Source: Romboutsia hominis (GTDB lineage Bacteria; Bacillota; Clostridia; Peptostreptococcales; Peptostreptococcaceae). Taken from it: a stretch of 64,000 nucleotides of DNA. The notes beneath the pieces are model-generated. The model made no database searches. It saw only the letters and a program-made list of their open reading frames with translations, and was not told where the DNA came from. Position 1 is the first letter of the stretch, and each line of letters starts with the position of its first letter. Both the position numbers and the translations under genes were made by a program. Where the stretch lies: positions 310,001-374,000 of the forward strand of contig NZ_LN650648.1 in NCBI RefSeq assembly GCF_900002575.1. Direction: 5' to 3'. Of this stretch, positions 9,397 through 48,477 are shown piece by piece.

Positions 9397-9439
9397 TGAT
9401 AATAATTATTAATAACAAAAAATAATGATAATAATTACA
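9397..9439 (+). promoter_or_regulatory. Two Fur-type operators
   Basis: TGATAATAATTATTAA (9397-9412) and AATGATAATAATTACA (9424-9439) resemble the Fur 19-mer GATAATGATAATCATTATC. They lie just downstream of the -10 element, where a bound repressor would block transcription. Seventeen bases of the first site recur, inverted, at 33576-33592. Confidence 0.75.
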
Positions 9440-9463
9440 TAAATAACAACACGGAGGAATGAC

Positions 9464-10408
9464 ATGAAAAGATTAAAATCATTAGTAGTATTAGGTGTAA
9501 CAATAGCTACTCTTGGAATTGTTACTGGTTGTTCGGGAAACAGTAACAATGAAGATAGTAATAAAAAAGAAGAAACAAGAGTAGTACAATCCGTAAAAGG
9601 GGAGGTAGAAATACCAGCAGATCCTAAAAGAATAGTTGATATATCTGGAAGTAGTGAGGAGCTAGTTTTACTAGGTCACACTCCAGTAGCTACAGCAAAT
9701 GTAGATTCATATGAAACAGATAAAGTTCCATCATACGTAGAGGATAAGTTAGGAAAGTCAAAAGTAGTTGGTCACTCAATGATGGATACTATGGATATAG
9801 AAGCAATATTAGCATCTAATCCAGATTTAATAATAATGGCACCAAGACAAGAAAAGATATATGATCAATTAAAAGAAGTAGCTCCAGTAGTTATGCTAAA
9901 AGATGAAGCAAATGATTGGGAAGCTAAACTTAAAGATGTAGCTAAGTTATTTGGACAAGAAGAAGAAGCTCAAAAATGGTTAGATAGCTACTATACAAAA
10001 GCTAAAAAATTAGGTGATGAAATAAAGAAAGCTAATGGGGACAAAACATACTTAACAGTATTAGCTAGTCAAGGTCAATTTATGGTATTTACTGAAGGTG
10101 GTATAGGGACAATATTAAAAGATGATATGGGATTACCTCAACCTGCTAATATGCCTAAGCAAGATGGAATAACTTTACCAACTGTTACTATGGAAGGTTT
10201 AACAGAGATAGATGCAGACCATATAATAGTTATAGCTACAGATTCAGATAAAGCCGATTTAGAAAAAAGTACAGTATGGCCAGAAATTAGAGCTGTAAAA
10301 GAAGGTAACGTAACAATACTTGATGCAAGTCCATACTTTAGTCAAGCATACAATCCAATAGGAAGAGAATTATTATTACAATCAATAAAAGATGAAGTTG
10401 TAAAATAA
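9464..10408 (+). CDS. Siderophore/ferric-chelate ABC transporter substrate-binding lipoprotein
   Basis: The 314-residue protein has a lipoprotein signal peptide with the lipobox IVTGC (Cys about residue 23), a short Ser/Asn/Lys linker, and a periplasmic-binding fold of the FecB/FhuD/FeuA class (motifs PKRIVDISGSSEELVLLG and NPDLIIMAPRQ). It captures a ferric siderophore outside the membrane and delivers it to the two permeases encoded next. Tandem Fur-type sites in its promoter region indicate iron repression. The overall sequence looks like hydroxamate-type receptors (YfiY/FhuD), but the ligand cannot be fixed. Confidence 0.9.
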   Translation: MKRLKSLVVLGVTIATLGIVTGCSGNSNNEDSNKKEETRVVQSVKGEVEIPADPKRIVDISGSSEELVLLGHTPVATANVDSYETDKVPSYVEDKLGKSKVVGHSMMDTMDIEAILASNPDLIIMAPRQEKIYDQLKEVAPVVMLKDEANDWEAKLKDVAKLFGQEEEAQKWLDSYYTKAKKLGDEIKKANGDKTYLTVLASQGQFMVFTEGGIGTILKDDMGLPQPANMPKQDGITLPTVTMEGLTEIDADHIIVIATDSDKADLEKSTVWPEIRAVKEGNVTILDASPYFSQAYNPIGRELLLQSIKDEVVK

Positions 10409-26227: not shown

Positions 26228-26494
26228 TGTATACAAAAAAAGCCATGAGACTATACCCATGACAAAAATACGTAAATTATATACAAAAAATACAACGTAC
26301 CGTACGTTTTCATTGAAAATAGCTCTCCACAAAAATGTGACAGTCTTATGCATATTTTACATAAGCCCAGTAAATAGTATCAAAGCCATTAACTATTTAC
26401 TTCGGCGAAATTTCCTTTTGTATTATTTCATTGAGCTTACCTCCATAATACTACTCTTAAATTTCGCGCCTCTATCTCAGTTATCTACTTGTTG
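26228..26494 (-). ncRNA. Lysine riboswitch (L box) with terminator, controlling lysP
   Basis: Read on the minus strand, conserved L-box elements occur in order: GAGGCGCGA, GAGGTAAGCTC, AAGGAAATTTCGCCGAAG, then TGTCAC and GTGGAGAGCTA. They are followed by a stem CATGGG / CTCATG with T7 (26234-26262), which acts as the terminator. A second palindrome, ACGTAC-C-GTACGT (about 26295-26307), with T6 after it lies in the expression platform. Bound lysine should terminate transcription before lysP. An 82-codon frame on the opposite strand is not a gene. Confidence 0.93.
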
Positions 26495-33340: not shown

Positions 33341-33505
33341 ATGTAAGTAAATTATATTAAGCACAAAAATGTTAACAACTCATGAAAGTAAAATATGTCA
33401 ATAAGATTGAAAATGTAAAACGTGACATTTGAGGAACGGACAAAGTCGTTGGTGACATGAAGTGTAGCGCCCACGCAGTGGCTTAAGCGAAGCGAATTTT
33501 TTACA
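33341..33505 (+). repeat. Dispersed intergenic repeat, copy B
   Basis: It aligns with copy A (22433-22568) over its length and shares the block GAGGAACGGACAAAGTCG, TTGGTGACATGA, AAGCGAAGCG and ATTTTTT. About 22 extra bases (33461-33484), with the hairpin CCAC-GCA-GTGG, split the block. Like copy A it starts directly after a terminator on the same strand. Confidence 0.65.
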
Positions 33506-33575
33506 AAATAAAAAATTATTATGCTAGAAGAAGTAATTTCATAGAGTACTTTAACGTTTAGTTTCAAAAAATGAA

Positions 33576-33621
33576 ATTAATAATTATTATCATTTACAAA
33601 AATGATTAATTATGATATACT
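33576..33621 (+). promoter_or_regulatory. Fur-type box overlapping the promoter of a probable small RNA
   Basis: ATTAATAATTATTATCA (33576-33592) is the exact reverse complement of 17 bases of the Fur-type site before the siderophore importer (9397-9413). It abuts a -35 TTTACA (33593-33598), followed 17 bases later by TATACT (33616-33621). Confidence 0.7.
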
Positions 33622-33640
33622 TTAAATAAATAGAGAATTA

Positions 33641-33754
33641 ATGAGTAATTTACTAGCAAGTGAACATAAAAGTGTAAATTATATCATAGCTTACATAAAT
33701 TTTTTAAATCCGATGATCTTCAGCACGTTATTAGATTTAATACAGAAAGTATAA
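33641..33754 (+). CDS. Possible 37-residue peptide within the small-RNA candidate
   Basis: ATG at 33641 opens 37 codons ending in TAA at 33752-33754. The peptide is moderately hydrophobic in its second half (residues 14-32) and could touch a membrane. The only ribosome-binding element is a weak AGAG. It may be chance. Confidence 0.25.
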   Translation: MSNLLASEHKSVNYIIAYINFLNPMIFSTLLDLIQKV

Positions 33755-33842
33755 TATTCCCCTATATGATAAATTACATTATAAATGTTATGCTAATTAT
33801 ACTCTTAATTTACTAATATAACTACACAACTTCTATATAAAG

Positions 33843-33871
33843 ACCACGATTCATATCGTGGTTTTTATTTT
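33843..33871 (+). terminator. Terminator of the small-RNA candidate
   Basis: ACCACGAT pairs perfectly with ATCGTGGT around TCAT; TTTTATTTT follows. No conventional gene precedes it. Confidence 0.85.
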
Positions 33872-33878
33872 AAAAAAT

Positions 33879-33921
33879 GATAATGAAATTCATTTACAAA
33901 AAATAAAAATTATGATATATT
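33879..33921 (+). promoter_or_regulatory. Fur box overlapping the rpsD-paralogue promoter
   Basis: GATAATGAAATTCATTTAC (33879-33897) matches the Fur 19-mer at 15 positions by eye. It overlaps the -35 TTTACA (33893-33898); TATATT (33916-33921) follows at 17-bp spacing. The box-promoter layout repeats that at 33576-33621. Confidence 0.7.
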
Positions 33922-33977
33922 AAAAATAGGCTTAAAATTATCGCGGCAAATTTCTGATTTTATAGGAGATGATAATT

Positions 33978-34571
33978 ATGGCAAGAATGATGGGACCTAG
34001 ATTTAAACAATGTAGAAGACTAGGGTTAAATGTATGTGGGCATCCAAAAGCAATGGATAGAGCTACAAAAGGAACGTCTAGAGCGGACAAAAAGCTTTCA
34101 CCATATGGAGTACAGTTATTAGAAAAGCAAAGATTAAAGGCTTACTATGGTGTGTTAGAAAAGCAATTTTCTAACTATGTAAAAAAAGCGATGAAATCTA
34201 AAGACTCTACAGGTACAGCATTAGTACAAATGTTAGAATGTAGATTAGACAACTTAGTATATAGATTAGGGTTAGCAAGCTCTACAAGACAAGCTCGCCA
34301 AATGGTAGTTCATGGACATATACTAGTTAATGGGAAAAAAGTAGATATACCTTCTTATGGAGTGTCAGTAGGAGATGTTATATCTTTAAGAGAAAAATCT
34401 CAAAAAAATACAATGTTTAAAGATAGTTTTCAACAAAATGCTACTAGCCAATATCCTTACTTAACTAAGGATATAGAGAACTTTTCAGGTGTTCTTACTA
34501 GAAAGCCTGAAAGAAATGAAGTACCAATAGAAATTGACGATATTTTAGTTGTTGAGTACTACTCAAAATAA
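33978..34571 (+). CDS. rpsD2: Ribosomal protein S4 paralogue lacking metal-cluster cysteines
   Basis: The 197-residue protein is a full S4: N-terminal domain ([21 protein letters not shown]), linker [15 protein letters not shown]4 RNA-binding domain ([32 protein letters not shown]) and C-terminal VVEYYSK. S4 nucleates assembly of the small ribosomal subunit. The usual clostridial S4 has four N-terminal cysteines (positions about 9, 12, 26, 31) for zinc or a [4Fe-4S] cluster; here only C12 (plus C20) remains. It stands alone, outside any ribosomal-protein operon, behind a Fur-type box. Start by AGGAGATGAT spacing. Confidence 0.88.
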
Positions 34572-34583
34572 TCTAAATATAAA

Positions 34584-34619
34584 ATTACCATAAATCTTAG
34601 GGTTTATGGTAATTTTTTT
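34584..34619 (+). terminator. Intrinsic terminator after the S4 paralogue
   Basis: ATTACCATAAA pairs with TTTATGGTAAT around an 8-base loop, followed by T6. Confidence 0.9.
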
Positions 34620-41505: not shown

Positions 41506-41732
41506 TTTTTTTCGCCTCCGAATTTTTTATAAGAATTAATTTATAGAATAATTCAAAGTATATTGAAATTATTGAATAACTATATAATTATTATACATAA
41601 GAAATCTAACTAATTTAATAGGGAAATTAAATAAAATTCGTATAATAAATATATATATAGTTTATTTATAAACTAATAATTTGTTGATTATGAAAATACA
41701 TTGTGCTACACTCAACTTGTAAAAATAAATAA

Positions 41733-41828
41733 AAGCTAGGGGAGCTATGATTGGATAGCTGAGAAGTAAAGCCATAACTTTCAGACTCTAAGAACCTGAT
41801 TAAGATAATTCTTACGTAGGGAAGCTCG
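41733..41828 (+). ncRNA. TPP riboswitch (THI element)
   Basis: Conserved elements occur in order: AGGGGAGC, GCTGAGA (41758-41764), CAGACTCT, AAGAACCTGATT, GATAATTC and ACGTAGGGAAGCT. Thiamine pyrophosphate binding should promote the terminator at 41865-41894 and shut off thiSFGH-tenI. Confidence 0.95.
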
Positions 41829-41864
41829 TATATTTTAATGTACCTAGATTTTTAGTTAAATAAG

Positions 41865-47398: not shown

Positions 47399-47456
47399 AT
47401 TAATAATTATTAATAAATAAAAAAATATTGACAATGATAATAATTATCAATACAAT
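47399..47456 (+). promoter_or_regulatory. Promoter of the yclNOPQ-type operon with Fur boxes
   Basis: TTGACA (47428-47433) and TACAAT (47451-47456) have 17-bp spacing. The spacer is filled by TGATAATAATTATCA (47435-47449), a perfect palindrome and strong Fur-box core. A second site, ATTAATAATTATTAATA (47399-47415), resembles the box at 33576-33592. Confidence 0.85.
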
Positions 47457-47523: not shown

Positions 47524-48477
47524 ATGAAGAAAAGATACTTAGGAATAATATTGATAATATTATCTGCAATATCAGTATTTTTAGGAGTACATAACATAAA
47601 GATAGTAGATATATTAACTTTAAATGAAGAACAATTAAATATTTTATTAATAAGCAGATTGCCTAGATTAATAAGTATATTAGTTGCAGGAATAGGAATG
47701 AGTATATGCGGTCTTATAATGCAACAAATAAGTAGAAATAAATTTGTATCTCCAACAACAGGAGCTACTATTGATTCAGCTCAATTAGGACTGATATTTG
47801 CGATGCTAATTCTACCAAATGCAACTATGGGTAGCAAAATGATAACATCTTTTGTATTTGCTCTTGGTGGGACCTTTATATTCATGAAAATATTAAAAAG
47901 TTTAAAGTTTAAAAATGCTGTGTTTGTACCGTTAGTTGGTATAATGTTTGGAAATATAATAGGTTCAATGACGACTTTTATAGCATATAAATATGATTTA
48001 ATGCAAGATATAACTTCTTGGATGCAAGGAAATTTCTCTATGATACTTAAAGGAAACTATGAAATATTATACATAACAATACCAATGATAATACTTGCAT
48101 ATATTTATGCAAATAAATTTACTATAGCTGGTATGGGTGAAGATTTTGCGACAAACCTAGGACTTAATTACAATAAAGTTGTGAACTTAGGGTTAATTAT
48201 CGTAGCAATAGTTACAGTATGTGTAGTAACAACAGTAGGAAGTATACCTTTTATAGGATTAATAGTACCAAATATAGTATCAATTTATAAAGGTGATAAT
48301 GTAAAAGATAGTATATGGCATACAGGGTTATTTGGAGCAATATTTGTGTTAACATGTGATATATTCTCAAGGATTGTAATATATCCTTATGAAATACCAA
48401 TAGGATTAACAGTTGGTGTTATAGGAAGTATAGTTTTCCTTTATATGATATTAAGGAGGAAGTCATATGCAAGTTAG
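47524..48477 (+). CDS. yclN: Iron-siderophore ABC permease, YclN-like
   Basis: The 317-residue FecCD permease has RLPRLISILVAGIGMSICGLIMQQISRNKFVSPTT near residues 45-80 and VGSIPFIGLIVPNIVS near 240. The missing classic NPLAxP and the short length match the YclN/CeuB group (petrobactin and related catecholates). First gene of a four-gene importer behind a strong Fur-type box. GAGGAAAG precedes the ATG. Confidence 0.9.
   Translation: MKKRYLGIILIILSAISVFLGVHNIKIVDILTLNEEQLNILLISRLPRLISILVAGIGMSICGLIMQQISRNKFVSPTTGATIDSAQLGLIFAMLILPNATMGSKMITSFVFALGGTFIFMKILKSLKFKNAVFVPLVGIMFGNIIGSMTTFIAYKYDLMQDITSWMQGNFSMILKGNYEILYITIPMIILAYIYANKFTIAGMGEDFATNLGLNYNKVVNLGLIIVAIVTVCVVTTVGSIPFIGLIVPNIVSIYKGDNVKDSIWHTGLFGAIFVLTCDIFSRIVIYPYEIPIGLTVGVIGSIVFLYMILRRKSYAS

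Follow-up and report, generated by a model that had tools for sequence, protein, structure and literature searches.

A stand-alone S4 paralogue of Romboutsia hominis under a predicted Fur box: a possible iron-sparing exchange of a ribosomal protein

Introduction

The protein uS4 is a primary assembly protein of the 30S ribosomal subunit. Ribosomal protein paralogues that spare a metal are well documented in the case of zinc; a counterpart for iron would be new. For the Clostridia, Chen, Roberts and Luthey-Schulten described in 2009 a class of S4 proteins, C-(V), which are encoded outside the alpha operon, lack the zinc-finger cysteines and the PGxHG motif, and occur alongside a cysteine-bearing (C+) S4 (PMC3087516). 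For C. acetobutylicum ATCC 824 they list one C+ gene and two C-(V) genes. In the relevant passages of that paper the cysteine site of clostridial S4 is treated as a zinc site, a search for Zur sites is reported which gave none near S4, and regulation is left open with a hint of sporulation; the word "iron" is absent from its main text (PMC3087516). The S4 of Thermus binds a [4Fe-4S] cluster (PMC11791143, PMC10450194), and the roles of ribosomal Fe/S clusters have been called poorly understood (PMC11791143). The passages of these two papers that deal with the cluster hold no clostridial S4 in which one was demonstrated. A search of the open-access literature by title and beginning of abstract, with closed papers outside its reach, returned no link of Fur or of iron to an S4 paralogue.

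We describe here a second S4 gene of Romboutsia hominis, called S4B below, which a preliminary description had presented as a stand-alone paralogue that might replace a metal-bound S4 when iron is low. The window, that is the whole stretch of DNA analysed, comprises 64,000 nucleotides (positions 310001-374000) of a 3.04 Mb single-contig genome; coordinates are those of the window unless a contig is named.

Results

The S4B gene and its product

The S4B ORF lies on the plus strand (33978..34571), begins with ATG at 33978, ends with its stop codon at 34571 and specifies a protein of 197 amino acids. It is preceded by a Shine-Dalgarno sequence, AGGAG, at 33964-33968. The protein scores above the cut-offs of two NCBIfam S4 equivalogs (251 bits against a cut-off of 116, and 227 against 177), matches the Pfam Ribosomal_S4 and S4 domains, and has orthologues in many relatives, which bears out the assignment as a stand-alone S4 paralogue. 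Its best-scoring solved chains are, as we presume from the entry codes, S4 proteins of Bacilli. The gene is apparently monocistronic, with its own promoter, a leader of about 50 nt (the start site being inferred), the single ORF, and an intrinsic terminator found by the terminator scan at 34581..34616 (+). It is flanked on the 5' side by nrdD and nrdG and on the 3' side by genes for an HxlR regulator and an SDF-family symporter, and stands outside the alpha operon, about 0.37 Mb from the C+ copy if the contig is circular.

The statement that S4B keeps one of four N-terminal cysteines also held: among C9, C12, C26 and C31 of the alpha-operon protein it retains C12 alone, with F9 at position 9, and it has two further cysteines outside this set, C20 and C88. 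The CxxC...CxxxxC motif occurs in none of 104 distinct S4B sequences. As C12 is retained in 55 of these and C20 in 63 (H22 in 100), no complete metal site is conserved in S4B. The PGxHG motif is missing from the S4B of the window and from 103 of the 104 sequences. In a fasttree phylogeny 107 S4B rows are split from 48 C+ rows by a branch with a support of 100. Judged by its location and motifs, S4B fits class C-(V) of Chen et al.

The alpha-operon S4

The genome contains two S4 genes by PF00163. The second, the C+ S4, follows rpsK, precedes rpoA and carries C9, C12, C26 and C31, so that the cysteine-bearing rpsD of the alpha operon, for which the preliminary description had proposed a search, is indeed there. 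Its four cysteines all align with those of an S4 that occurs in 351 PDB entries and that, from the entry codes, we take to be the Thermus protein. The CxxC...CxxxxC motif is found in the C+ partners of all 48 partner-bearing genomes of the first set defined below and of 23/23 named genomes. From the Thermus case and the link to Fur, the metal centre of the clostridial C+ S4 is probably a [4Fe-4S] cluster rather than zinc.

Fur box and promoter of S4B

A Fur box, GATAATGAAATTCATTTAC, is predicted at 33879..33897, where 15 of 19 positions match the consensus GATAATGATAATCATTATC. It overlaps the -35 hexamer (TTTACA, 33893-33898) of a promoter at 33893..33921 (+), TTTACA-17-TATATT, in which a spacer of 17 nt separates it from the -10 hexamer TATATT. 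The promoter is sigma-A-like in appearance and its layout recurs, by eye, in relatives; it was found by a promoter scan that listed 11 promoters against 8.6 expected by chance. The count of matches to the consensus is unremarkable by itself, one site of the window reaching 17 and six other listings reaching 15.

The promoters of feoA were also used, to build a matrix. Among 21 family genomes examined, 20 gave sites, mostly TGATAATGAATTTCATTAGGAGG or the variant TGAGAATGAAACTCATTAGG; the feo locus L145 was left out because no box was seen. The matrix was built from the feoAB promoter sites of 19 other genomes, with the site of R. hominis itself left out. It ranks 33879-33897 first of the 63,982 positions of the window, at 19.3 bits, and in 100 shuffled windows the best score was 19.0 bits, so that none reached that of the S4B box. 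The runner-up in the window, at 47430 and 14.5 bits, precedes a gene for a FecCD permease. The core of the feoAB promoter box is also present at the S4B box. The earlier claim of a 15-of-19 Fur box over the S4B promoter is accordingly confirmed as regards match and position, and strengthened by the rank of the site under an independent matrix.

Genome-wide pattern searches were less informative. The pattern TGATAATGAWWWTCATTWWCA, derived partly from this same site, occurs without mismatch only at the S4B box. The Fur 15-mer (7-1-7) gave 1,092 matches per strand against 1,572 for its reversed control, and the 21-mer pattern 17/23 matches against 14/20. As these counts exceed those of the reversed controls by little or not at all, they prove nothing; promoter context, the feo matrix and conservation carry the case. 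The neighbours of 16 loci of the 21-mer pattern were inspected, and several lie beside genes without an iron link. Sites near the Fur pattern in the R. hominis genome precede feoAB and genes for a FecCD permease, a Peripla_BP_2 lipoprotein, a ZnuA lipoprotein and a NifH-family protein, as well as others without an iron link.

Within the window, Fur-like sites are present at 9398-9440, before the Peripla_BP_2 lipoprotein gene (9464-10408), and at 47430-47448, before the FecCD permease gene (47524-48477). Elsewhere in the genome, Fur-like boxes precede a ZnuA-type lipoprotein gene (G000:C1:1829064, L079) and a NifH-family gene (G000:C1:1857893, L080). They hint that Fur may touch zinc or manganese uptake too, in a genome in which no Zur was detected.

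Fur-family regulators

A profile search at E 0.001 detected one FUR-family protein in the R. hominis genome and no second one that could serve as Zur or PerR. It scores 173 bits against the Fur model (cut-off 220), 112 against PerR and 52 against Zur, all below the respective cut-offs. With a single FUR-family protein that is closest to Fur, binding of Zur or PerR to the S4B promoter, which the preliminary description had named as a way in which its reading could fail, is unlikely in R. hominis. Zur and PerR were rejected as regulators of S4B for this species only. The genome G050 likewise has one FUR-family protein, and its S4B box is the identical 19-mer. In the other 39 genomes checked, 38 have one to four FUR-family proteins and G252 has none. 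Each of the nine genomes of genus g14 (Peptostreptococcus) has at least three matches; the eleven genomes of family f36 include G252, without a FUR-family protein, and G362, with one at 63 bits.

Conservation and the cysteine-bearing partner

S4B orthologues are present in 39 of 71 genomes of the family, whose other genera include Intestinibacter, Terrisporobacter and Peptostreptococcus, and also elsewhere in the Clostridia. The S4B matches in named genomes, taken as the best 80 of 590, extend to Negativicutes, Synergistales, Halanaerobium and a rumen Treponema MAG.

With g8 and g22 set aside, 25 family genomes of 11 genera were compared for the position of the site that scores highest by the feo matrix. 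In 24 of them it begins between 97 and 102 nt ahead of S4B; the exception is L047, at which an upstream box outscores the S4B box. Farther upstream the DNA diverges, by eye, among relatives. Boxes are also found outside the family, with matches of 19/19 in Propionispora (Negativicutes), 17/19 in Geosporobacter ferrireducens and 16/19 in Pelosinus fermentans, a species that has both S4 types.

Of the genomes in the first set, 48 encode a C+ partner as well as S4B, and 20 have S4B as their only S4. A box was counted where at least 14 of 19 positions matched the Fur 19-mer, the upstream DNA being scored over 300 nt in the first set and over 250 nt in the named set. By this count 40/48 loci with a partner have a box as against 1/20 of the S4B-only loci (Mann-Whitney p = 4e-10; with each group reduced to its genera, 25 and 9, p = 5e-5). 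The feo matrix scores above zero at 41/48 loci with a partner (seven fall below) and at 0/20 of the S4B-only loci. Pooled with the named genomes and deduplicated, the figures are 54/69 with a C+ partner versus 1/35 with S4B only. In the pooled set 39 of the 80 named loci entered the partner counts and 41, including L261, stayed outside; three duplicate upstream sequences were taken out, G420 (a MAG with an unclear partner) was kept out of all counts, and G415, G187 and G311 of family f36, each with a single S4 of lower similarity that is not of the S4B type, were kept out of the S4B-only set. In these genome sets the Fur-like box is associated with a cysteine-bearing partner.

Fifteen of the 69 partner-bearing loci miss the box criterion (L069, L072, L166, L171, L172, L174, L176, L177, L264, L278, L280, L291, L300, L323 and L324). 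By eye, degenerate boxes can be made out at L171, L172, L278, L280 and L323, and no box at L264, L291, L300, L324 or the f53 pair L176 and L177; the partner-bearing loci without a visible box include those of C. beijerinckii HUN142, C. mediterraneense, C. mobile, Halanaerobium and family f53.

S4B is the sole PF00163 match in 20 genomes, belonging to genus g14 and family f36. It is the sole S4 in 9/9 genomes of g14, so that S4B is a working ribosomal protein which can serve alone as the S4 of a cell, and in these nine genomes no Fur box is found at S4B despite their FUR-family proteins. It is also the sole S4 in 16/39 named genomes, one of which is also among the 20 and some of which are MAGs that may be incomplete. 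In the S4B-only genomes 11/24 feo promoters reach the same box count (scored over 900 nt in the nine genomes of g14 and over 400 nt in the other 15); with feo motifs this weak, the contrast may be due in part to a Fur motif that has drifted. On a quick tree of S4B the partner or sole state changes 8 times, and the 2 independent pairs on well-supported branches are too few for a sign test.

Two further observations concern distribution. One genome gave no full-length S4B but encodes, at G003:C49:87004-87102 (L074), 33 residues that share 91% identity with the C-terminus of S4B and are likely the remnant of a lost gene. C-(V)-like S4 proteins are encoded at L288, L293, L304, L305, L308, L309, L317, L319 and L324, in Negativicutes, Synergistales, Halanaerobium and the Treponema MAG, and form the sole S4 in all four genomes tested of Veillonella (two) and Megasphaera (two); the type is thus not limited to Clostridia, as the class of 2009 was.

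The leader of S4B

Just before the Shine-Dalgarno sequence, at 33933..33962 (+), the leader contains a putative hairpin, TAAAATTA-[TCGCGGCAAATTTC]-TGATTTTA, recognized from its motif and from a test of its arms. The loop contains CGCGGC, and a CGCGG-type motif occurs in the last 90 nt of 88/148 loci. When the arms of 74 distinct leaders were tested against each other, own arms gave 16.1, arms of other species 12.2 and shuffled arms 10.8 (Wilcoxon p = 2.6e-9, with 55/74 above the cross mean and relatedness uncorrected). RNAalifold found no consensus pairs in a leader alignment (50 of 77 distinct leaders), in which MAFFT seems to have split the hairpin arms; folded singly, the S4B leader of the window does not surpass its shuffles (z +0.46) and favours a different pairing. 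Six leaders folded in this way range from z -2.7 to +0.5. Rfam gave no match covering the hairpin in the S4B loci searched at E up to 1.

The hairpin is present with and without a Fur box, as would be expected of self-regulation by S4, and it may let S4 tune its own translation. Its loop, as we read it, resembles the sense and antisense of the 530 loop of 16S rRNA, the core CCGCGG being its own reverse complement. The S4B genes of the genus Peptostreptococcus (L060-L068, last 200 nt) have another leader, with repeated TGGACAATG...CATCCA arms and without the CGCGGC hairpin. Elsewhere in the window are a lysine riboswitch at 26312-26482 (-) and a TPP riboswitch at 41728-41839 (+).

The upstream transcript

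The neighbouring Fur-controlled transcript that had been invoked in favour of an iron link has a counterpart in the DNA: pattern and matrix scans place a second predicted Fur box, TGAAATTAATAATTATTATCATTTACA, at 33572..33598, over the -35 of a promoter at 33593..33621 (+), TTTACA-17-TATACT, listed by the promoter scan. It would give a putative Fur-controlled small RNA of about 250 nt, drawn by eye at 33622..33870 (+), that ends in a terminator-like stem, ACCACGAT-TCAT-ATCGTGGT, and a T run. The layout and the T run on the plus strand were read by eye; the terminator scan lists the stem on the minus strand only. Rfam gave no match for this transcript, which is apparently non-coding; for a 37-codon ORF close to its start no counterpart was seen, by eye, in relatives.

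A similar unit is visible before S4B in the family genera g10, g11, g15, g17, g19, g20 and g23, and was not seen by eye before S4B in the g5 and g9 loci or within 340 nt in g6. In g8 and g22 the small RNA and its terminator form the leader of S4B, with no clear Fur box in g8. The transcript evolves fast across relatives, and we regard it as a candidate iron-sparing small RNA. Farther upstream, at 33430-33500, lies a short GC-richer element, ACGGACAAAGTCGTTGG...GCAGTGG, which is like a tandem ACGGACGAAGTCGTTGGCGCCATGAACGCAGTGAATTTT found upstream of S4B in another genus (L048).

Discussion

The account that we prefer, and consider probable, is that S4B is a Fur-repressed, cluster-free uS4 which replaces the C+ S4 at low iron. 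When iron is plentiful, Fur would sit on the box over the -35 and repress S4B, and the ribosome would use the alpha-operon S4, whose cysteines would hold the metal centre. When iron is scarce Fur would leave, S4B would be made from its own transcript, and it would replace the cluster-bearing S4 in newly made small subunits; ribosome assembly would then need neither iron nor the delivery of an Fe-S cluster. The preliminary description had proposed such a Fur-controlled exchange, and the cysteine-bearing S4 found elsewhere in the genome, the box core common with feoAB and the 54 of 69 partner-bearing loci with a box all speak for it. At four iron atoms in each ribosome, and with ribosomes numbering in the tens of thousands, S4 could by our estimate be among the larger users of iron in the cell.

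A wider proposal, to which we lean by a little, is that many Clostridia and some Negativicutes match the S4 of their 30S subunits to the supply of iron, using an Fe-S protein in plenty and a cluster-free one in shortage, that the ribosome thereby serves as an iron store that can be drawn upon, and that the Fur-boxed small RNA and S4B form one iron-sparing module. The exchange, if true, would tie the composition of the ribosome to iron supply and give the S4 cluster a job. Control by Fur would also offer an answer to the question, left by the 2009 paper, of how the C-(V) S4 genes of Clostridia are regulated.

It is rather unlikely that Fur controls S4B for a benefit other than iron sparing, such as a specialised ribosome for circumstances that accompany low iron, among them slow growth, inflammation of the host and the damage done to clusters by redox stress or NO, or a guard against failed cluster assembly. 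The evidence on regulation would be the same under this explanation, and the lost cysteine site could also be one that stress damages; however, the Fur link together with the loss of exactly the cluster site points most simply at iron, and an S4B-type protein that is the sole S4 of the 20 g14 and f36 genomes serves ordinary growth and forces no special state on the ribosome.

We think it improbable that the metal is zinc, with the C+ S4 holding zinc and S4B sparing it under Zur or under a Fur that answers to zinc. Other ribosomal proteins do undergo zinc-sparing exchanges under Zur, the clostridial S4 site was treated as zinc in 2009, and the ZnuA gene of R. hominis itself has a Fur-like box. 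Yet Chen et al. found no Zur sites near the S4 paralogues (PMC3087516), the box at S4B is of the type found at feoAB, and R. hominis has no detected candidate for Zur, its regulator scoring 173 bits as Fur and 52 as Zur. This last argument applies to R. hominis only, as other genomes with S4B have up to four FUR-family proteins.

That S4B is a developmental paralogue for the ribosomes of spores, with an incidental Fur box, is very improbable: its promoter is sigma-A-like with a conserved Fur box, and S4B is the sole S4 in the tested genomes of Peptostreptococcus, Peptoniphilus and Veillonella, which are non-spore-formers. The idea derives from data cited in the 2009 paper, according to which C-(V) genes rise during sporulation in C. 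acetobutylicum and C. novyi (PMC3087516). Finally, a chance likeness of an AT-rich promoter to a Fur box is scarcely credible: 15/19 matches are common in the window and the reversed control of the 15-mer pattern is at least as frequent as the pattern itself, but the independent feo matrix puts this box first with no shuffle of 100 reaching its score, and the site keeps its 97 to 102 nt distance in 24/25 family genomes of 11 genera while the DNA farther upstream differs.

Comparison with known systems

RyhB and FsrA are Fur-regulated small RNAs of the iron-sparing response. The transcript upstream of S4B is like them in its predicted Fur box, promoter and terminator-like stem and in that no conserved ORF was seen, and differs in having no Rfam match. 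The clostridial S4 ribosomal leader, one of the Firmicutes S4 leaders treated by Eckert and Weinberg in 2020 (PMC7247131), is, like the leader of S4B, a structured leader before an S4 gene; the published element regulates rpsM-rpsK-rpsD-rpoA-rplQ, whereas the putative S4B hairpin has a CGCGGC loop and precedes a stand-alone rpsD.

The uS4 of Thermus thermophilus has in common with the alpha-operon S4 of R. hominis the motif of four cysteines; the cluster was demonstrated in the former (PMC11791143) and is presumed in the latter. S4B belongs to the same protein class as the C-(V) S4 of Chen, Roberts and Luthey-Schulten (PMC3087516); to their description, as far as the passages cited here go, we add the predicted Fur box, the difference from genomes that have S4B alone, and the putative hairpin of the leader. 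A parallel in logic is provided by the Zur-controlled zinc-free paralogues of S14, L31, L33 and other ribosomal proteins in Bacillus, Streptomyces and Mycobacterium, in which metal-binding C+ proteins are backed by C- proteins under a metal-sensing repressor of the FUR family (PMC3087516). S4B would differ from these in its sensor, which is predicted to be Fur, in the presumed Fe-S nature of the metal centre that is spared, and in the protein concerned, uS4.
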